Positions 2,895-54,124 of a stretch of 64,000 nt of DNA are shown in pieces; position 1 is the stretch's first letter; the number at the start of each line of letters is the position of its first letter. A program made the translations under genes and the position numbers. This DNA is from Crambe crambe (taxonomy: Eukaryota > Porifera > Demospongiae > Poecilosclerida > Crambeidae): positions 930,001-994,000 of the forward strand of contig OZ004591.1 of assembly GCA_963924555.1 (NCBI GenBank), in the 5' to 3' direction. The notes beneath the pieces were generated by a model. It had not been told where the DNA came from, made no database searches, and saw nothing but the letters and a program-made list of their open reading frames with translations.

Positions 2895-4618
2895 TTCTAC
2901 ATTATCATTGTACTTGTGTAGTCTTTTTCCCTTATCATAAGTTATTATTATAGTGCTATGCATCCGCTATGATTTCTTCACTGTGTAGCTAGCTAGCTGT
3001 GCACATCCAAAACTCATGCAAAATGGTAAGATGAATGCAAGCTATAGAGCTAATTAAATTAGCTATGAGCTAAAATATTTATTATTTTCAGGTGTTCAAA
3101 GGTACAGGAGTTGTGTATTCATATGACTGAGAAGTGAATTGGTGTGGACTGATTCTGTCTTCACTGCTGTCATTATGTACCTTCTCCCCCTTTGAAATAC
3201 TATTAACAGTACCGTACGTGCCAGGACTGTCTCGGATATTCACACTGCTTTTGCTTTTTAATAATTTGCTGCAACCGTTAAAAACACTTTTCTTGAATTT
3301 TTTGGTGAAGAATATGAACAGCAGTGCATTACTAATGCCTTGTCCGGAGTCACCAATTCCCTAAATAAAAGAAACAGCTAGCTAGCTACTGTGAGTAGGA
3401 AGGATATTTTCTAAACCAAGAAACTAGCTATATCTCTTTTTCCCAGGCAAGGGAGTCAAAAACTGAAGATACTTGATGGGTAGTTACATAGCTAACTAGA
3501 GGAACATTCATTACTTACTCCAAGAATCACTAGGGCAAGAGCTATTTTTGGATTCAGACTTCTTCTCACATAGAGGTGCAAGACATCTCCAATGAACGAC
3601 CACACTCTTAGAAGGATGAAAATAATAGGTATCAAGAGAAACTTGTAGTCGATGGATTGCAGAGCCAACGTGTATTTGTCAGATCTCCTGTATAGTGCAG
3701 TCTGTTTGGCCTAAAATTGTAGCAGAAATCATGGCAATAATAAAAGGATTGTCTGATCAGTTAGTTGTATACATGAAATTGAGGCCATGCAACATTATAC
3801 AACAGACACACACTGATAACAGTTATTACTCTGCCATCCCATGTAACCTGTATAGGTCAGCATGTGCTACTAAAAAAGGGAGGGAGAGGTATGTCTTCGA
3901 TCTGGTAGAATGACTCAAGATGGTTCATAATGAATGGACTAACCTCTTCTCTTACGTTGATGTGGACCGTACAAGAGAGAATAGGAATGAAAAAGAATGT
4001 TAACAATATCCAAAGATTATATCCAAACAGAGAGACATATATATCTTTTTCCTTGGTCAAAGGATCCATCAGAATGATAGAACACCACCCCGATGACTCG
4101 TATGGAGAATAACCAAGCCTTCCTGTGAAAAGCAGCCACATAGTAAGAAGAAGTGGCATTCCATAGCAGAAGAAATATGAGAAATACAAGCAGTATTGTG
4201 CTAACTTCGTGCTCCTATGGAGAATACGAAAGTATAAATAGCACGAGAGAGAATTTGTCCATAGTATGGAGCCATAAGTGAAGTAAAGGGAAAGAGCAGC
4301 TTGGGAAAGGCAGAGATTTTGCATCATGGGTGATGTAGGACACATGATCAAATCATGAAAAGGCTGTCGGCCATCAGCGTGGTGAGGTAAAATGAAGATG
4401 TTTGAGATGGAAGTATTGCAGTCTTCAGAGGGGATCTTGCAGAAGAAACGGTCGAAATAAACTGCCACCCCTACTAAATTGAAAGTGGCTACTCCCAAGT
4501 CCATTAGAGAAATGTGAACCAAAATCTGCCTTCCACGACTGCGTAAGTCCTTACAGCAGATGAAGGAAAGGATGATCAGTAAGGTCCCAATGATGGAGAG
4601 AGAACAGGTGACCATTAT

Positions 4619-5069
4619 TAGGGTTGCCAAAGTGAAAATTCGATCTTCAAGATATCAACAAATGACTACAGGAAAAAGCTTAGCTATCTTATAAGATGCT
4701 CCAGCTTCGATAAAACCTCACCTCGAACAATTTCTGCGGCGCAGCACACAAAAATACTTGTACGGTTAAAATTGAAGCTGCTCTAATTAAAGGAAGAAGT
4801 GCAATATTTTGTAAGGTTGTACTGCTGCTTCTGTGCCTGACCAAACTTGCTCCCAGGTGTGAAAAAAGTGCTTCCAGGTGTGAAAAAAGTGCTTCCAGGT
4901 GTGAAAAAGGTATGATTGGAGCCGGAATGGAGGGATAAAGCGAGTCCAAGGAAAGGGGGTGTTGAAGGGTGCTAGTCTCTCACACCATTTCTATGTTGGG
5001 TGGTAGGTAATCACTCTATAGACCTAGTTTGAGGGAAGTTCAATGTTTCTCTCCAGCTGGATGAGTGAT
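4619..5069. repeat. left terminal inverted repeat of the transposon
   Basis: Base by base this matches the reverse complement of 8955-9424, with scattered mismatches and small indels. It starts TAGGGTTGCCAAAGTG and ends near CTCCAGCTGGATGAGTG. It contains extra copies of a 20-bp CTTCCAGGTGTGAAAAAAGT unit at 4852-4910, so the arms are not identical. Confidence 0.9.
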
Positions 5070-5240
5070 CTGAACTAAAATTTCAGAGTTTTGTGTGTTA
5101 ATGAGCATGTTGCGAGTGTGGGAACATGTTTTAACTTGCTACCTGTACTTTTTTAAAAAGGTAATTCAATTGGCAATTAATCTGGAATGGCCAATTCTAT
5201 ATCACCAGGTAAATATGACATTTATTAGCCCAAATAATGT

Positions 5241-5450
5241 CTCCTAGAGTACCTTCTTCGACCTCTAGATGAACTAATGGAAGAGGACACTGCCATATTA
5301 TGTGAAGTGAAAGCATTGCGGATAGAGATGAAGCATTTCACTGAACTAGTCGAAAAATTAAGCAAAGAATTCATTGAAATGAAGAGAGAACTTGAAACTA
5401 CACGGTGTGCATTAAGTGAGATTACAATGCAGTTACTTTCCACCAATTAA
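5241..5450 (+). pseudogene. inverted remnant of the transposase coiled-coil segment
   Basis: A plus-strand open stretch ending in TAA at 5448-5450, with an ATG at 5277. Its translation (CEVKALRIEM ... ELETTRCALSEITMQ) aligns with the coiled-coil part of the transposase encoded on the other strand (SEVKVVQAEM ... ELHSTRCALRDVTNE). It lies between the left inverted repeat and the transposase stop, preceded by an AG that could serve as a splice acceptor. It is either debris from a related element or a small second gene encoding a transposase-like coiled coil. I favour debris. Confidence 0.6.
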
Positions 5451-5499
5451 GGACATGAGTTAGCTATGTGCCCTGAATAATTTGTTGTCATTGAAATCA

Positions 5500-8400
5500 T
5501 TAAATTATTTTTAAGTCTCCATTAAACAGGTCCACAGAAAGATCAAAATAACAGTGTTCATCTTCTCCTTCATATATAATTTCATGTGTTTTTGTAGCAG
5601 TGTCATAGCTGAGTATAGTACCATGGTACCATCTGAACTCGCTTGTGCCCACCTCAAATTTATGACTTATATGTTTCCCTATCAAAAAATCAGGGTTCTG
5701 AATAAGATGTGAGGATTCAGAGGTGCTGTTTTGGATGTACTCTGATAGTTCACTAATGATATCATCAATAGGTCGGTGTTTCCCAGAACGGCTAAAAGTA
5801 ATATGAATGTTTTGATGTAAAATTTTCTTCCTTATCTTAAACTGTGTTTTTATAAGGGAAAGTTTCTGGGCTTTCATTTTTGCAGCTGTGAGTGGTAAGC
5901 TTTCAATGTCCAAAAGTGCTTGACATAGTTCATCGGGGGTGGTAATCAAATGCTGTTGAGAAAGTTCATCTCTCTCCAGTTTTTCCTTCCGCTTCAGAGC
6001 TTCCCTTCTCACATTTGCTTGGACCATGTTTTGCCTTCTTTCTTTAATTCTTTGCTCTTCTTCACTTTTGTACTCCCTTTGCACACTTAATCTTTTCTTA
6101 ACAGCTAAGTCTATCACTTCACATTGTTGGTCATTGGTAAGGCTGCCTAACCACTGCAAAGTTTTATTCTTTTTAACTTCAACAAGGTTGGAACGTGCCA
6201 TCTGGTGTAGGTTAGGGATTGCAGTGGTAAGATAATCATTTAGACCAAGGATTGATTCGCAAAGGTCATTACTTGGTTTCAACTCAGCAAGTGCTCTCTT
6301 TACATCTGGCTCTGGAGGGTCCCAGTACTTGCCTCCTGGAAGTTGGTTTTGTGCATACATGCATAATTTTTCTCTCATTTTCATTACCCCAGCAACCAAC
6401 AATGGATATAGTGTTGCAGAATTACACTGACCTTGCTCAAATAATTCTTCATAAACAACTTTCGACTTTGGGTGTTGGCGATGATTGGTATTTTTATTGT
6501 CTCCATAAAGCTTCCCTTCAGATCTGAACACTTTATGATTTTTGTCCAGTACCACTTTAGGATAACGCTCAACTTCTTGCAAATAAGTTTTTAGTTCGAG
6601 ATAATGATGGTTCATGTCCAAAGCTGATTTTCTTAAGTCACTAGATTTAGACAACATTACAAGGTCTGCATAAACATGATAAAACATCAACCCATCTGCT
6701 ATTAACTGAGTAATTTCAGTAGAATCCAACAATTTCATATAAATATCCCTTTCTAATTTGTTACCAGTATCTTTACCCATATACTTTAGGAAGTGCAGAG
6801 CAGCATTCTTAAGAAATATGATCTTTGCTGCATTTGCAGCTGAAACAAAGTATCGACTTCCAATTTGACGTGCAAGGGTTACACTAGAACAAGAAGAATA
6901 GTACACTCGAGATTCTTCACTCAAACTGGCATCAGCAGACATTACTGCCAAAAAATCGGGAAATCCTAGCACTCCACAACAGTATTCAGGGGTGCCATAT
7001 TTGCCAAATACTTTGCAGAATTCATGGACTAGCACATCCACTGGATGATATTGTCTACTAGTGGATTCAGCATCATCACACCCCACAATTCCTGATAAAA
7101 AGGCCTTGCGTAGATTGACACCGAGATGCATCGCACATAGATTTTCAATTAAATCAACAGTTGTAACTGTAGCAGGCCCAAATCTTTCCTCATCTGATTC
7201 TCTGCACTCTTTAATCAGTTTGTTTACTCGTTTTTGGGTAGATGCTGAATCAGAAGTCGAGGAAACCAACAGAGTCCAATTGATACTATCTGGATTTGGC
7301 ATATTTAAAGCATGTGCTGTCTTTCTTAACTTTTGAAGCTCCCTTGATACATCTGCAATGGCACTATCAGCAGTTCCATCAGGAAGTTCATTAAGAGACA
7401 CAACCATATTATTGATGGCTACTCCTCCTATTTTTTTTTGGCCTTTCGTAGTCCCATCTGTGTTCATGTGAAATCCTTTGCTTTCCGTTACATGCTCACA
7501 TAGAACAGTCGCCTTATGAGCACTGCTAATAGTTTTCAATTCTTCTTTTCTCATGTAACTGGCACAGCCTCGCTGAGGCAGCTTGAGCTGTTCAACGTCA
7601 ATAGATGGATTGAAACATTTTATAACAGATTTGATGATATCAGAGATTTTAGAAGAGGGGACCTGATTTGTTAAAAGAGTGTAGTACAACTTTCGAATGG
7701 CTGGTAAATATCTTCTGCCATGCTTAGTTTGAATACTGAAGTCTACATATACATCACTGGTAGGATGAGCACCAATAGAAGCTACAGTTAATTCCTTTTC
7801 TACATCTGAAATTGCTATGGATAAGTCAACGTTTTCTTCCTGTAGCTGGAGAATATCCTCCTCCAGTGCAAAAGTTCTCTTTTCAGCCATATCTCGCCTC
7901 CTTTTAGCAATATCTCTCTGTTTCTTTAATGCTATCTTTTCATTAGTAACATCACGCAATGCACATCGTGTAGAGTGTAGTTCATCTTTAGATGCACATA
8001 ACTGCTGCCTTAATTCATCAACTTCCATGTTTAATTTCTGTAGTTGTTCAGTGCAACTTCTCATCTCTGCTTGCACAACCTTAACTTCAGATACAGCTTT
8101 GTCAAGGCCATAAGTCATTAGTTTATCTGGAGGTTGATTACATTTTGCAATCCTTTCAATAAACCTGTATGCATTGTCTGCACGACACCTTTTTTCTGCT
8201 AGATTCTTATCAATTGCCATATAAAACTGTCCTATGGCTACTTTTGTTGATCCACGGGTAATACTCCACTTTTTAAAGAAAGGGTGCAATTGTTTGTAAA
8301 AACCTACATTAGGAACACCTGGAATATGCCATTTGAGGATTTTTTCCCCATTTTGAACCTGGTAATAAACAGATTCTAGTAGTTTTTTATCCAAACCATA

Positions 8401-8791
8401 AACAATAAGCTCTTCAGGAAATGTATCTATTAAGAATATCAGAAGCCATAAAAGTAGCCAATCATAAGAGCATACATGCACACACTTGTGTCATATAATT
8501 ATGGAGAATATTTATCTAACCTGCTGCTATAGGGTTCCTTATACGAGGCTCCCAAATCCTCTTTCTATAGGTTGATAGTGAAGATCCACTGATCTTACTT
8601 CCACCCCTTAATGAGGGCTGGGTAGGTGCCACAATACGTTTAACAGTTTCATAGAATCTTCTCGGACGACCTATGTATATCTTAGGATACTGCTCTCTAA
8701 ATTTTGATACCATAAGATATTCATTATTGTCAGGGCACTTATTGAACAGATCTATCAATTCTCCATATGTTGGTTTCTTGTGAGTTGCCAT
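5500..8791 (-). CDS. transposase of the long-TIR DNA transposon (1065 aa)
   Basis: Two exons, 8791-8521 and 8426-5500, are joined across a 94-bp GT-AG intron in phase 1. The ATG at 8791 (MATHKKPTYGEL) is the first in-frame methionine; an upstream TTG at 8809 is not needed. Visible parts: an N-terminal basic region (residues 1-90, YIGRPRRFYETVKRIV), then a helical region, then a coiled coil rich in K/R/E (about 140-260). The likely RNase-H-fold core follows, with NTDGTTKGQKK (D near 414), STSDSASTQKRV (D near 483) and a C-x2-H motif (CAMH near 521-524). A charged helical stretch and a C-terminal SH3/Tudor-like segment (W-Y-H-G-T-I ... DLSVDLFNGDL) close the protein. It would cut and paste the element and bind its inverted repeats. 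Intact length and intron suggest recent activity. The third acidic residue could not be assigned. Confidence 0.8.
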
Positions 8792-8954
8792 AATCGTGGG
8801 CGTGGCCAAACCTCTTCACATACACAATGGTAACGTCAAAAAGAAATCCTGAGGATGGAAACAAAATAAATATGACCAATGCCTTAGTAAAGATGTCTAT
8901 TTGAAGGAAATAAGCTTCAATTCTGGACACAATATACAAAAATATAGTTGATAG

Positions 8955-9424
8955 CACTCATCCAGCTGGAGAGAAACATTGAACTTCCCTCAAACTATGT
9001 CTATAGACTGATTACCTACTACCCAACATAGAAATAGTGTGAGAGACTAGCACCCTTCAACACCCCCTTTCCTTGGACTCGCTTTATCCCTCCATTCCGG
9101 CTCCAATCTTACCTTTTCCACAGTTTTTCACACCTGGAAGCACTTTTTCACACCTGGGAGCAAGTTTGGCGGCTACAGCAGTACATTCAACATGATTCAA
9201 GCACACCCTTACAAAATTTTAGAGAAATATTGCACTTCTTCCTTTAATTAGAGCAACTTCAATTTTAACCCTGTGTTCGCGTACAAGTATTTTTGTGTGC
9301 TGCGCCGCAGAAATTGTTCGAGGTGAGGTTTTATCGAAGCTGGGGCATCTTATAAGGTAGCTAAGCATTTTCTGATAGTCATTTGTTGATATCTTGAAGA
9401 TCGAATTTTCACTTTGGCAACCCT
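8955..9424. repeat. right terminal inverted repeat of the transposon
   Basis: Inverted partner of 4619-5069. It begins near CACTCATCCAGCTGGAG and ends TTGGCAACCCT. It has fewer copies of the internal CACACCTGGAAGCA-like unit than the left arm. Confidence 0.9.
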
Positions 9425-9528
9425 ACCATTATGATGATTCTCACCCACGGCTCTTTCTTCTCGAAAGGGGTAGCATCCTCCAACGAGGCATCTTCCAGCT
9501 GCTCTAGTTCGTGGATGAGTGAAGACAT

Positions 9529-9664
9529 TGCTTTGATGCCGAAACTGCTGATGCAGCATATTTTTAGTTTATGAGCTTAAGTCACATGACGTAAATCTAA
9601 AGCGCGCGCGATGAACCAATGGAATTAATTTTTGTCATAATTAAATTTCTATTCTCCAGCTTAG
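9529..9664. promoter_or_regulatory. bidirectional promoter between receptor genes a and b
   Basis: Only 136 bp separate the minus-strand ATG of receptor a (9528) from the plus-strand ATG of receptor b (9665). The spacer has a CRE-like TGACGTAA (about 9587), a CGCGCGCG run (about 9602) and CCAATGG (about 9616). Shared control of the pair is inference; the transposon now lies about 100 bp inside gene a. Confidence 0.5.
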
Positions 9665-11719
9665 ATGGATTGGATGCTCTCAAACAGAAGATTACTGGAT
9701 ACGAATTTTTCCAATGTCAGCGACGACTGTACCCCCACTTTAGCATTCCAGCCAGTTTTCATCCTTGCCCTACGGATATGCGTATCCATCACATCAATCC
9801 TTTCCATGTTGGGAGCAAGTCTCATCATAGGTACCTTCATAGCGTTTAAAAGCTTAAGAACTAAAGCTAGACAGCTTCTGGTCCAGCTCTCGATTGCAGA
9901 TTTTCTTCTGGCTTTATCCCACTTAGTGGGAGTCAACCTCAATCTTCCAAGATTTGCCAGTCGAATTTGTTCCAATAGACTAGAGACAGACTACAATATA
10001 ACTGGTGATGCATTTTGTGAAGTGCAGGCAGGAATTAGTATTTTTTCAACTCTTGGCTCCTTCTTTTGGACGGTAGCAGTGGCACTCTATCTTTTGACTA
10101 TCATTGTTTTTGAGAAACCTAAAGTGGGCAAGTATCTCACCTATTTATCTTACGTTGTGTGCTGGGGCGTTCCTGCTGTGGTGGTGGTTATATTCGGCAC
10201 TCTCAATTACTTGGGCTTTCACGCTAACTTGGATGCAGGTACTTAGACTACTAGTTTAATAGCTTACTTCATATGTATAATAGAGTGAATCTCTCACTTC
10301 ATATCAAGTTAGAGTGAAACCCTATATGAGCAATGACCAGTATAAAAATGTATTCTTTCAAAATTCCTCTATGGGCTTCATGTGTAAGATTAGAGAATTT
10401 GAGATGATTAGTCTTTATGCATGCAGGTATATCATATCTACAGTGTTGTAGATATAATCACGATAGATAACTAAAAACTTTCAATAAAAACTCAGCATTG
10501 TTGTTAAGATAATCCATGTCTGGACAATAATATGGAGTGTTGCTGTGAGCCCTGGACTGATATGGCAAGTAGCTATATCTAGCAGGAAAAGGACCTCACA
10601 ATATGCATATGACAGCTAGCATAATATCAGTTTTAAGTATAGTAGTATAATAGAAAAAAATCGTCAGACAAAGGCAGAGAATAACCCTCACTTATGCTAA
10701 TCTCTGAGAGTCTATTAGCCCTATAGCTCTGAGCCATCTGTTCTTGGCCACCTGTAAACATTTATTGTCTTCAAAGTCATGACTATGACCAATGTGGTAG
10801 TTGACTTGTAGCTAGCATCATTTATCTGGCTGGACAATCAGACTATAGGATAACTTATAAATAGATTCTCTTTACCACTGAAGTAGCCAAAATGCAATAA
10901 GGCTACACTACTACTGGATACACACCTAGCTAGGCTAACTTGAAAAACAATAGAGCTATCTTAATTTTATGTTCAGGTTGGTGCTATCTGAGAACTGCTT
11001 TCAAATCTAGTCCCACTGTTCCAGATGTGTTGAGTCAAGTATTTGTTTATTTGACATACATACTTCTGTTTGTGCTTTACGTTTGGATACGCTGCTCTAT
11101 TCGAGCCAAGGTTGGTGGTGGTTGGTAGCTAATGGTACATGAAGTTCCATTACATGTCATCAGGGAACTGTCGGTAACTCAACTTGATCAGCTGACAGGC
11201 AATGTACAGCAGCTGTTTTTAGTAATTTTATGGATAGGAAACAAGTAGTAGTGTCCCCAAGTGTATTGAGAATGTCATGATGATCAATTACCTTCAAGTG
11301 GGTGGGGTCTAAATTCTGTTAAAGGAGGTGGCATGGGATTCTAGTTTAAGGGGGTGTGATTCCACATTGAAGAGGGTGACCTATGGCTTTACTATTGAGG
11401 AAGGGGGTGGGGTTTCCATACTAATGGCTCCCTATATAGCTGAAGAGGATGGCATTCTACTCACTTCTTGTGTCCTTTTGTTTTATTAGATGAAATATGT
11501 TTCAACTCAAATCTCCTCTACAAACAAATTCCAGTCAAGAACAAAGAATGCTGACATCAAACTGACTTTCATTCCTCTCTTCTTCATCTTCCTTCGAATA
11601 TGGGGGACTTTGCTCGGGATTTTCTACATTTATATGACTGATTACAGCGCTAAGTTCAGAGAAACACCTGCCAATGCTGCTCTTGTCTTTTTATCTGTAT
11701 GTTCTAATTATTGATCAAC

Positions 11720-14583: not shown

Positions 14584-16256
14584 TCAATTATTTTTTATTG
14601 AGCCATAATGGGTGGTTTGTAGAGAATTAGTAGTACTCAAGTCCAGTGTGTCTTCCAGTAAAGTCTCACTCTGCCCCTGAGCCACTTGATCATTCTTCCT
14701 TCTACAAAGACGAAGGAGAACATGGTACCATCTCATTCGAACCTGTCTTGTGAGGAGACAAAAGAGTACTGCATTCACAAACCCTTGAGCATTGATACCA
14801 ATTGCCTGCCGGAATAAAGACAATAAAAATATAATAACCATACAAATAGAAGCTCACAATGAATGGGAACAGGTGTCACAGCCACCAGGGCCTGGTAATT
14901 GATGGTGTAGCTAACTTCAATTCTAAAAAGCTAGTTTATCTCTCTAGGAGCTTAATTGGTTGTTTATTCTAAGGCTATGGGTATCACTTATTATCTGTGG
15001 GGAGGAGGAGCTATAATTAATAAAAATCCAATTGGTTTCCAAATCCCCCCCCCCCCCCCCCCCCCCCCCCCCATACTGTGGATGTACTAACTTGCATAAA
15101 AAGAAGAACAGCATTGGCAATGTTGCAACGATAATGTATATCAAAATTTCTAGTGTAAAATGCAATGACATCCACAAATGTTGTCCACACTCTCAGCAGA
15201 AGGAAAATGACAGGTATGAAGAGCAGTTTGATGTCGGTCTTGGATGATGCCAGTGCTGTATTAGAATACTCCTGCATAGGTGTCGGTATAGTCAATATAA
15301 CCTACTCATTGTTAATAACTAGCTAGTACTATCCAAATATGCCCCTATACAGGTATAATTTATAAGCAGTACTTAATATAACCTACTCATCATTGTAGTA
15401 CTCTTAGCTAATAGTATCAACAGCTGCTTAAAGTCAAAATGAGTTTTATGGGATCAAACCATTACTTTTTTTCGACAGCGAATGTGGCACGAAACGGCAA
15501 TGTAGCTGATAGGGAGGACAATATAAGCAATGTAAACCCAGATCTCATATGTAAAAACCTCAGCAGCTATGTAGATATTATCATCTCGTTTGTAGTCATA
15601 GTCCACCACATAGCAACCTACAAATGAAAGGAAAATTGGTGTAATATTTATGATGGGTTTAATAAATTGGCTATCTCACCTGCTTGTCCTGTTAACTGGA
15701 ATCCCAGGAATCTTTTGATGATACTTGCAATCACAAAAGGTATAGGGACCCCCCAGGATAAAACATACAGGATTACAACCATCACCTTTATTGCCTTCTG
15801 CTTTATATTTGTTGTAATCATAACTAGCATATACACCGCTATGGACATTGTCCACAGGAATGATGCTATTGTACTAAACATAGTCACAGCACCTTGAGAA
15901 ATGCATTGTGCATCAAAAGCTGATTCGTTGATGCGATCATAGACATCATCAAGGTTGCCTATTAATTCTCCAGTAGTGTTATCATAATGAGGCAGGAATC
16001 TTTCAAAATTTATCATTGCACCAACAAAGTGCGAACCAGCTATGAGCATGTCCGCAATGGAGAGATTGAGCAACAACTGCCTTGCTGTGGTTCTCAAGTC
16101 TTTAAAAGCAACATAGGTGAGTATGATGACGCATGCTCCAAGGATCGAGAGAGAGCAGGTGACTCCAGTTAGGACCTTGACGCCTGCGATAACTCCGGGG
16201 GAGACAGCTGGATATATGTGGAGCATACACGCACTTGCATTTGGGAGAGCGTTCAT
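14584..16256 (-). CDS. GPR157-like seven-transmembrane receptor 'd' (376 aa)
   Basis: Exons 16256-15680, 15617-15466, 15271-15092 and 14805-14584, phases 1, 0, 0. Start MNALPNASAC with a glycosylation site. TM1 region is VTCSLSILGACVIIL and loop 1 is DLRTTARQLLLNLSIADM. A long insert with NTT and NES sites lies between TM2 and TM3. TM3 is ASFLWTMSIAVYM and TM4 is VLSWGVPIPFV. Extracellular loop 2 has GCYVVDYD, with no tryptophan before the cysteine. TM6 is LLFIPVIFLLLRVW and TM7 is AIGINAQGFVNAVLF. Its splice positions are those of b and c, so these three form one subgroup. Divergent from receptor e with 126 bp between the start codons. Confidence 0.88.
15045..15072. repeat. poly-C tract
   Basis: 28 consecutive C in the intron of receptor d, about 20 bp downstream (minus-strand sense) of the third exon. 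Confidence 0.85.
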
Positions 16257-16382
16257 TTTTTCTCTTTGTAATCGTAGCTAGCTAGCTAATTAGCCACGCC
16301 CCCATAAACTGCGCATAATGTTATGCGCAAGTGGTGGGATGTACCCGCGAGTGCTGCTTGCTGCAAGTAAAATAGCTTTACT
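16257..16382. promoter_or_regulatory. bidirectional promoter between receptors d and e, with 18-bp palindrome
   Basis: 126 bp lie between the two start codons. A perfect palindrome GCGCATAATGTTATGCGC occupies 16311-16328 near the centre, so a dimeric factor would see the same site from both genes. AGCTAGCTAGCT occurs on the d side. The regulatory role is inferred from position and symmetry. Confidence 0.55.
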
Positions 16383-17880
16383 ATGGGTGATTGGCCCGAC
16401 AAAGAAGTTAATTTCACGCCCATCTTGGATCCCGTCCAGAAGGATATCCCGACCAGAACAGTAGTGGGGATTACCTGTGCCCTCTCCATCATAGGGTCAC
16501 TACTCATCATTCTCTCCTACCTCCTTCAGAAAAAGAAGACCAAAGTTCGCGAGATTCTGGTTAATGTCTCCTTAATGGATTTAGGAGTGGGTCTTTCAAA
16601 TTTAATTGGCCTATCAGTTTATTTCGATCAATATTATGATATGAATGGATATGGTGGGAAGCCGGTTCCAACTTACATAGACAACTTGTGCAAGACACAG
16701 GCCTTTTTTGCAGCATACTGTTCTCTGGGATCGATATTCTGGACCACAGCTCTGGCAGGCTACCTCTATGCTGTTGTGCACAGTGATCATTGTAAAAAAA
16801 AGCATTTTCTCTGCTTAGTGAGATTTTACTATGCCATATGCTACGCAATACCCCTCATCATTTCAGTGTGGCTCGTATCAACTGGAAGATTGGGCTACTC
16901 TCCCTACGACTCAAGCGGCTGGTGTTCTCTTATTGCCAAGGATCCTTATACCAAGAAAGTCAATCTGTTCATCACTGTGTTTGCACATGACTTATGGATG
17001 TATCTTTCAATGATTTTGATAATTGTTCTCTATGTGGCCATAAAGTGCTCTGTTACAAATCAGGTAAGGTGTATTAGTAGCTATTATGCCTATATATAAT
17101 TAATAATTATATATATATATATATATTATGTATAGTAATGCACATGTAATGCATGCATTGATAATGATTAATGTATTATTGAGCATATTCATGATACAGG
17201 TCAGCTAATTGCAGCTGTTTTTTCATGGCAGGCAGTGAATTACTGCATGTGCTTAAGTCAGCATAATTTGCTTACTAGCTACAATCTTTCAGGCTATCTA
17301 TGCATCTAGTATTTTTTTGTACCTTTATCATTCATATTAGGTAAAAGATAGTCAGACAGCTCCTTCAAAGAAATCTTGGTCATCACTGAACTTATTAGAT
17401 TACAAGTTCATAGCAATTCCTGTGATTTTTGTGCTGCTGCGAATCTGGAGTCTCATTCTAAGCATCCTTCTGGATTATGCTCAGTTGAAAACAAAAAATA
17501 TCCCTCTTATTGTTATTCTTTTCTACTTATCAGTAAGTATATTATAAGTAACAAGTTGTATCATGTCATTTTTAATACCTTTGGTTAGCACTGCAATTTC
17601 TTTTCCTTAGGGGATTGGTGATTCAGCACAAGGTTTCACAAACGCCATTTTGTTCATCTTATTCACTAAGACAATCCGAAATAACATCCTCAGGTATGTA
17701 TTATGTTGCAAGTACAAGCGGTCGAAACAGATACGTAGAGAACAGAGCCTAAATGATGTGGATAGCCAGGAAGACATTATAGAAGACCCAAGCACAAGTG
17801 AAGATGAAAAAATGCCAATTAATAGTTCTATCACCAAAACCCCCTTGCTTCATGGAACCCCAAAGACCAGTCTACACTGA
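16383..17880 (+). CDS. GPR157-like seven-transmembrane receptor 'e' (380 aa)
   Basis: Exons 16383-17063, 17341-17532 and 17611-17880, all phase 0. TM1 region is ITCALSIIGSLLIIL and loop 1 is KVREILVNVSLMDLG. TM3 region is GSIFWTTALAGYLY and TM4 is YAICYAIPLII. Extracellular loop 2 reads GRLGYSPYDSSGWCSLI, very close to receptor a and the clearest match to GPR157. TM6 is IAIPVIFVLLRIW and TM7 is GIGDSAQGFTNAILF. The tail is acidic and serine-rich. With a and g it belongs to the three-exon subgroup with no intron near loop 2. A polyadenylation signal follows 140 bp after the stop. Confidence 0.9.

Positions 17881-52556: not shown

Positions 52557-54124
<1,568 letters not shown>

Follow-up and report, generated by a model that had tools for sequence, protein, structure and literature searches.

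The closest described systems are found among DNA transposons that share short target duplications or a particular catalytic motif and, for one domain, among retroelements and chromatin readers. The Galileo branch of the P superfamily is described as having 7-bp duplications as its usual length (PMC3688188). Dada elements make 6-7-bp duplications and carry a D/CxxH motif after the second catalytic Asp, while hAT elements combine a CxxH motif with duplications of about 8 bp; a D...D...C/DxxH...E pattern is described in the same source for hAT, Kolobok, P, MuDR and Dada (PMC3706591). A C-terminal Tudor domain has been described in Gypsy-10_Ec32 of Ectocarpus, which, to the knowledge of the authors of that 2025 study, is the first reported Tudor-bearing transposable element (PMC12477816). 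The second Tudor domain of Spindlin1 binds H3K4me3 via the side chains of Phe-141, Trp-151, Tyr-170, and Tyr-177, and binding is weakened about 2,800-fold by Y170A and about 130-fold by F141A (PMC7864079).

The locus described here lies in a 64,000-nucleotide stretch of the genome of the sponge Crambe crambe (GenBank assembly GCA_963924555.1, contig OZ004591.1, positions 930,001 to 994,000 of the forward strand), which is referred to as the window. The genome searched was the 143.1-Mb assembly of 119 contigs, in which the window is on contig C14 and to which contigs C3, C5, C8, C9, C12, C17, and C18 also belong. The window contains a DNA transposon in the first coding exon of a receptor gene (receptor a). 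This element is similar to the P superfamily and Galileo in its 7-bp duplications, and to Dada in both duplication length and the CxxH motif. Elements of the hAT superfamily have TAGGG-like ends, and the window element resembles them in this feature as well as in the CxxH motif. Like Gypsy-10_Ec32, the window element is predicted to encode a C-terminal Tudor domain, a likeness that does not imply sequence kinship of the two Tudors; in contrast, Gypsy-10_Ec32 is an LTR retroelement of brown algae, whereas the window element belongs to an animal and has inverted repeats. Compared with the Spindlin (Spin/Ssty) readers, the window family is closest to the second Spin/Ssty repeat, with aromatic residues at the positions of Phe-141, Trp-151, and Tyr-170; however, Spindlin has three repeats, while the transposase domain corresponds to one repeat fused to a transposase. 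The best explanation overall, including the inferred steps set out below, is that a recently moving cut-and-paste DNA transposon entered a gene for a seven-helix receptor, duplicating 7 bp of its target, a reading to which we assign a probability of roughly 85%.

The insertion and its target duplication

The features of the element and of the interrupted gene are as follows.

4619..9425, no strand assigned: DNA transposon of 4,807 bp, TAGGGTTGCC...GGCAACCCTA, with inverted arms and a near-identical second copy on contig C3
4619..5083, no strand assigned: left terminal inverted repeat, 465 bp, with three subterminal repeats at about 21-bp spacing at 4843-4911
8939..9425, no strand assigned: right terminal inverted repeat, 487 bp, containing two subterminal repeats of 20 bp each (9121-9160)
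9426..9528, minus strand: receptor a first coding exon, 5' part, with the ATG at 9528 and the right copy of the 7-bp duplication inside it (9426-9432)
3944..4618, minus strand: receptor a first coding exon, 3' part, with the left duplication copy, CCATTAT, at 4612-4618
3519..3710, minus strand: receptor a exon 2
3088..3360, minus strand: receptor a exon 3, with the stop codon
9529..9664, no strand assigned: 136 bp separating the start codon of receptor a (minus strand) from that of a divergent receptor at 9665 (plus strand), untouched by the insertion

The original prediction placed a 4.8-kb element between the two halves of the first coding exon of receptor a; this arrangement is confirmed by the inverted arms and flanking exon halves. 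The arms pair in complementary blocks of 184 nt at 94%, 146 nt at 96%, and 46 nt at 98%, with shorter blocks between them, and the insertion point is 96 bp into the receptor a coding sequence. The termini of the element are defined because the second copy, on C3, is nearly identical. This copy also corrects the 8-bp duplication originally proposed: the duplication is 7 bp, CCATTAT in the window (4612-4618 and 9426-9432) and ATGAAGT at the C3 copy. The eighth matching base in the window arises because the terminal A of the inverted repeat meets an A in the flank, and no such match occurs on C3. The restored receptor a sequence is identical whether the duplication is counted as 7 or 8 bp.

Duplication length was surveyed at 14 sites with inspected ends, consisting of the window and C3 copies and 12 further insertions of related elements. 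Exact 7-bp duplications are present at 13 of the 14; the site on C18 is imperfect. The 11 further exact duplications are GCTTTGG, TCTAGCT, GGCTTGA, TGTATAG, CTTTAAG, AAACTGT, CTAATTA, ATACATA, CTTGTAG, ATATAAT, and TTGTAAG. Together, the terminal inverted repeats and fixed-length duplication identify the element as a cut-and-paste DNA transposon. That the locus is instead an assembly artefact fusing unrelated sequence is exceedingly improbable, as the element ends carry an exact 7-bp duplication, the reading frame is restored upon removal of the element, and 12 of the 13 other sites have the same duplication length at similar ends. Searches for an empty allele with the flanks (3088-4617 and 9426-9664) matched the window locus only, in a collapsed 143-Mb assembly where a second allele would be hidden; consequently, the insertion may be fixed or may be polymorphic, heterozygous, or somatic, as originally suggested.

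The interrupted receptor gene

Rejoining the flanks with a single copy of the duplication yields 257 open codons in the first coding exon, as predicted. The downstream splice sites are also sound, in agreement with the earlier claim: the exon 1 donor (AGAG/GTTAGT, at 3943) directly follows the exon end at 3944, and joining the restored exon 1 to 3519-3710 and 3088-3360 gives a receptor of 411 aa. The receptor a frame at 3857-4654 matches the Pfam family PF00002 (7tm_2) above the cut-off (25.6 vs 20.6 bits), placing the predicted product among the secretin-like (7tm_2) seven-helix receptors. The joined N-terminus can be aligned across the insertion point in all six of the window paralogs compared, the closest of which has 39% identity. 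Three of these alignments extend back to residue 17-21, whereas the other three start at residue 29, just a few residues ahead of the insertion junction.

Two head-to-head receptor pairs are found in the window. The first is formed by receptor a and its neighbor at 9665, and the second comprises the frames at 15648-16277 and 16371-17099; the start codons are separated by 136 bp (9528-9665) and 126 bp (16256-16383), respectively. The two pairs are possibly duplicates of one module. Elsewhere in the window, a long CTCTCT-like simple repeat at 53109-53840 produces spurious long frames on both strands.

What the interrupted allele can still make

Read from the old start codon of receptor a, the frame stops after 39 codons, within the inverted repeat, and the interrupted allele is likely null or near-null. 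This is not proven, because an ATG within the left copy of the duplication (4615-4613) could serve as the start of a receptor lacking its N-terminal 33 residues. If transcription from within the element reached this codon, the allele would not be null. The ATG is in frame with the remaining exon, opens a 378-aa frame downstream, and has A at -3 and G at +4; reading outward through the final 300 bp of the element on that strand reveals no other ATG. The loss would be limited to a brief N-terminal stretch and the opening residues of helix 1, but helix 1 would thereby be shortened, and we consider such a truncated receptor unlikely, while giving it some weight.

Removal of the element as an intron, so that the receptor would still be made, was also considered, as a donor-like ATG/GTAGGG is present at the junction and 14 of 256 donor/acceptor pairs leave the frame open. 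All 14, however, start the exon at 4526-4550 and delete helix 1, as judged by alignment to the paralogs, and no acceptor in the last 300 bp of the element yields an open frame in the 256 pairs tried. Splicing that retains helix 1 is rejected (0 of 256 pairs tried), and production of the receptor by this route is very unlikely. Loss of function, complete or nearly so, is the preferred reading of the allele.

Copies in the genome and age of the insertion

The window and C3 copies differ by 9 substitutions over 4,530 aligned bases (0.2%). The C3 copy has four gaps relative to the window copy (6, 8, 231, and 32 bases) and is interrupted by a later insertion. A third copy polarizes six of the nine differences, of which five changed in the C3 copy and one in the window copy. 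The insertion in the window is thus young by these comparisons, in keeping with the original prediction that it is recent. The prediction that the transposase is open also holds, as its main frame is uninterrupted. The rest of the gene indeed shows no decay, as was claimed, but at this age that has little bearing on whether the gene works: an intact remainder of receptor a is expected whether the gene is used or not.

An old insertion in a gene long dead might be suspected from the inverted-repeat arms, which differ at 28 of 452 aligned bases in the window copy. The arms of the C3 copy, however, show nearly the same difference (30 of 452), and the divergence therefore predates both insertions; as it is inherited, it was rejected as a clock. 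Given also the 0.2% difference between the two copies and the lack of a stop or frameshift in the receptor outside the insertion, an old insertion is highly improbable, and a young one remains the preferred reading.

The left repeat has at least seven matches in the genome: two at the termini of the window copy and five on C3. In the listed transposase matches, identity of 87% or higher is confined to the window and C3, and of these matches the window copy alone is in a single full-length frame. Two places on C3 about 2.7 Mb apart (C3:3258000 and C3:582000) are 97-98% alike over about 9 kb and contain the same broken pieces of the element. Four copies of a related element on C3, C5, C17, and C18 (L046, L047, L074-L075, and L072-L073) encode transposases listed at 100% identity to the query, which suggests another recently active family.

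Structure and placement of the transposase

The transposase is predicted to be encoded by two exons.

8521..8791, minus strand: transposase exon 1, predicted (MATHKKPTYGELIDLF...), with donor CAGCAG/GTTAGA at 8520 and homologues in the C12, C8, and C9 relatives
5500..8426, minus strand: transposase exon 2, with putative catalytic D324, D393, C431xxH434, and E724 (numbered from 8427)

The main frame is open over 5500-8490, and the joined exons give a protein of 1,065 aa with one stop. The exon 1 protein is present in the C12, C8, and C9 relatives at 42-53% identity. Within the motifs TDGTT (D324), SD (D393), CxxH (C431 and H434), and E724, the D, D, C, H, and E residues are invariant in all four aligned members. 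This arrangement resembles the pattern of hAT, Kolobok, P, MuDR, and Dada, the DDE-like assignment being a reading of motifs and not of the fold. The conserved residues are consistent with a transposase that would be catalytically competent.

No Pfam transposase family matches the four family members. THAP and P-type RNase H Pfam domains have no match at E<=1 in the four transposases or the N-terminal exon, and PF21787 has at least 150 matches elsewhere in the same genome. The hAT C-terminal dimerization domain likewise has no Pfam match in the same transposases, with at least 150 matches to PF05699 elsewhere in the genome. By eye, none of the listed PF21787 or PF05699 matches overlaps the four transposases or the C3 copy. 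An hhalign comparison against the genome's own P-like and hAT proteins, based on shallow profiles, gave no match. With Pfam profiles, the only zinc-finger match at E<=1 is ZSWIM1-3_C in L046 (E=0.97). No tRNA or Rfam match is present in the window, one scan each of viral and prokaryote contigs found no relatives, and phage-protein families gave weak matches only (E 0.01 or worse).

By the features compared, the element does not fit three described superfamilies. In contrast to the P superfamily and Galileo, the window element has no THAP or P-type RNase H Pfam match and adds a predicted C-terminal Spin/Ssty domain. It differs from hAT in having no match to the dimerization domain and in its duplication, which is 7 bp and not about 8 bp at 13 of 14 sites. 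Dada elements lack terminal inverted repeats, have CCCC and CCHC zinc fingers, and target small RNA genes, whereas the window element has inverted repeats of 465 and 487 bp and its target is a receptor exon.

A small frame on the opposite strand

A second, smaller frame lies on the opposite strand from the transposase.

5277..5450, plus strand: small second frame of 57 aa, or 74 aa if a possible upstream exon is included, similar to the transposase's coiled-coil segment

The 74-aa version aligns to the transposase coiled coil with a score of 91, compared with a shuffled mean of 36 (SD 5.6) and with none of 500 shuffles scoring as high. A similar frame is found at the same place in the C9 relative (L018, within 986-1490), which scores 66 against its own transposase (0 of 500 shuffles) and 49 against the window small frame (2 of 500 shuffles as high). 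A search of the C12 and C8 relatives found no counterpart of the small frame, and the score of the window frame against the C12 transposase is chance-like (64 of 500 shuffles).

A Spindlin-like Tudor domain

The C-terminus of the transposase contains a further predicted domain.

5503..5670, minus strand: C-terminal Spin/Ssty (Spindlin-like Tudor) domain of the transposase, with approximate limits

A profile built from four transposases matches Spindlin-1 in the PDB (E=8e-7) at profile positions 921-983 of 985. Twenty C-termini were then read, comprising these four and 16 from matches reaching the C-terminus, and 12 were retained after dropping eight near-duplicates. The 12-member profile matches Spindlin-1 at E=4e-26, most strongly in repeat 2 of the three that Spindlin has, and six of the 12 members individually match PF02513 (Spin-Ssty) at E<=1 (best E=4e-7). 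The domain of the window copy itself has no PF02513 match at E<=1 and a weak match to PF21743 (E=0.015). Because its own domain scores weakly, the Spin/Ssty case for the window copy rests on the family profile, through which its C-terminus is assigned as a predicted Spin/Ssty Tudor domain.

The side chains that form the Spindlin1 cage are largely matched in the transposase alignment. Position 141 is Phe or Trp, position 151 is Tyr or Phe, and position 170 is Tyr in all 12 domains; at the less certain Tyr-177 position, 11 of them have a gap.

Among the matches listed genome-wide, PF02513 is above its cut-off at 14 places. Eleven of these fall within transposase matches, and two are on the same strand some 100 bp downstream of such matches. 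The remaining place is a decayed fragment, an assignment made from its peptide and from a weak transposase match close by. All 14 are thus judged to sit on such transposases or their fragments. No free-standing Spindlin gene was seen among the listed PF02513 matches, a search that could miss repeats split by introns.

In open-licence PMC text, no paper was found on a Tudor-bearing DNA transposon or on Spindlin in connection with transposon domestication; PMC3259105 mentions the Tudor domain once, in its reference list. The window element would be a DNA transposon case of a Tudor-bearing transposable element.

Insertion sites relative to gene starts

The position of 13 insertion sites was compared with that of gene starts, defined as -500 to +150 of the first ATG of an open frame. 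The site on C18 was left out because its duplication is imperfect. With frames of at least 90 aa, six of the 13 sites fall in this interval, compared with 37% of window positions; the corresponding values are 6/13 and 33% for frames of at least 100 aa, and 4/13 and 13% for frames of at least 150 aa. The background consists of positions in the window without the element, and for some sites the flank on one side is limited to a few hundred bases. These 13 sites do not establish a bias of insertion toward gene starts. The window site, itself one of the 13, prompted the idea of a preference for gene starts. The copy on C9 (L018:174-252 and 5420-5925) likewise splits a coding frame, 79 bp downstream of its ATG; the empty site has this frame open for 112 aa.

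Proposed mechanism and significance

Based on the features described above, it is proposed that a recently mobile cut-and-paste transposon, encoding a transposase that is presumably catalytically competent, inserted 96 bp into the receptor coding sequence and duplicated 7 bp. Translation from the old start would then end after 39 codons in the inverted repeat, giving a null or nearly null allele. The Spindlin-like Tudor domain may bind a methylated histone tail and contribute to the selection of open chromatin for insertion. The oligomerization segment of the transposase itself may be the source of the small coiled-coil frame; as a guess, it may be a dominant-negative brake.

A broader proposal is tentative, and we regard it as possible but doubtful: that the elements form an undescribed superfamily (Repbase or Dfam may already name it), in which a Spindlin-type reader steers insertion to active gene starts, and that animal Spindlins and these transposases share an origin. 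Such an origin, by capture in either direction, may hold because the listed above-threshold Spin/Ssty domains are found only on these transposases.

A transposon in a gene is ordinary. In this animal, the young and almost unchanged insertion in receptor a offers a ready marker of recent transposition. The part worth following is a transposase that matches no Pfam transposase family and carries a predicted reader domain. The PHD finger of RAG2 is a comparable reader. Gypsy elements with reader domains are also comparable (PMC12477816). A reader of histone marks within a transposase would let a DNA transposon read chromatin directly, in a manner that can be tested, and the presence of this domain on transposases raises the question of where the Spindlin domain originated.
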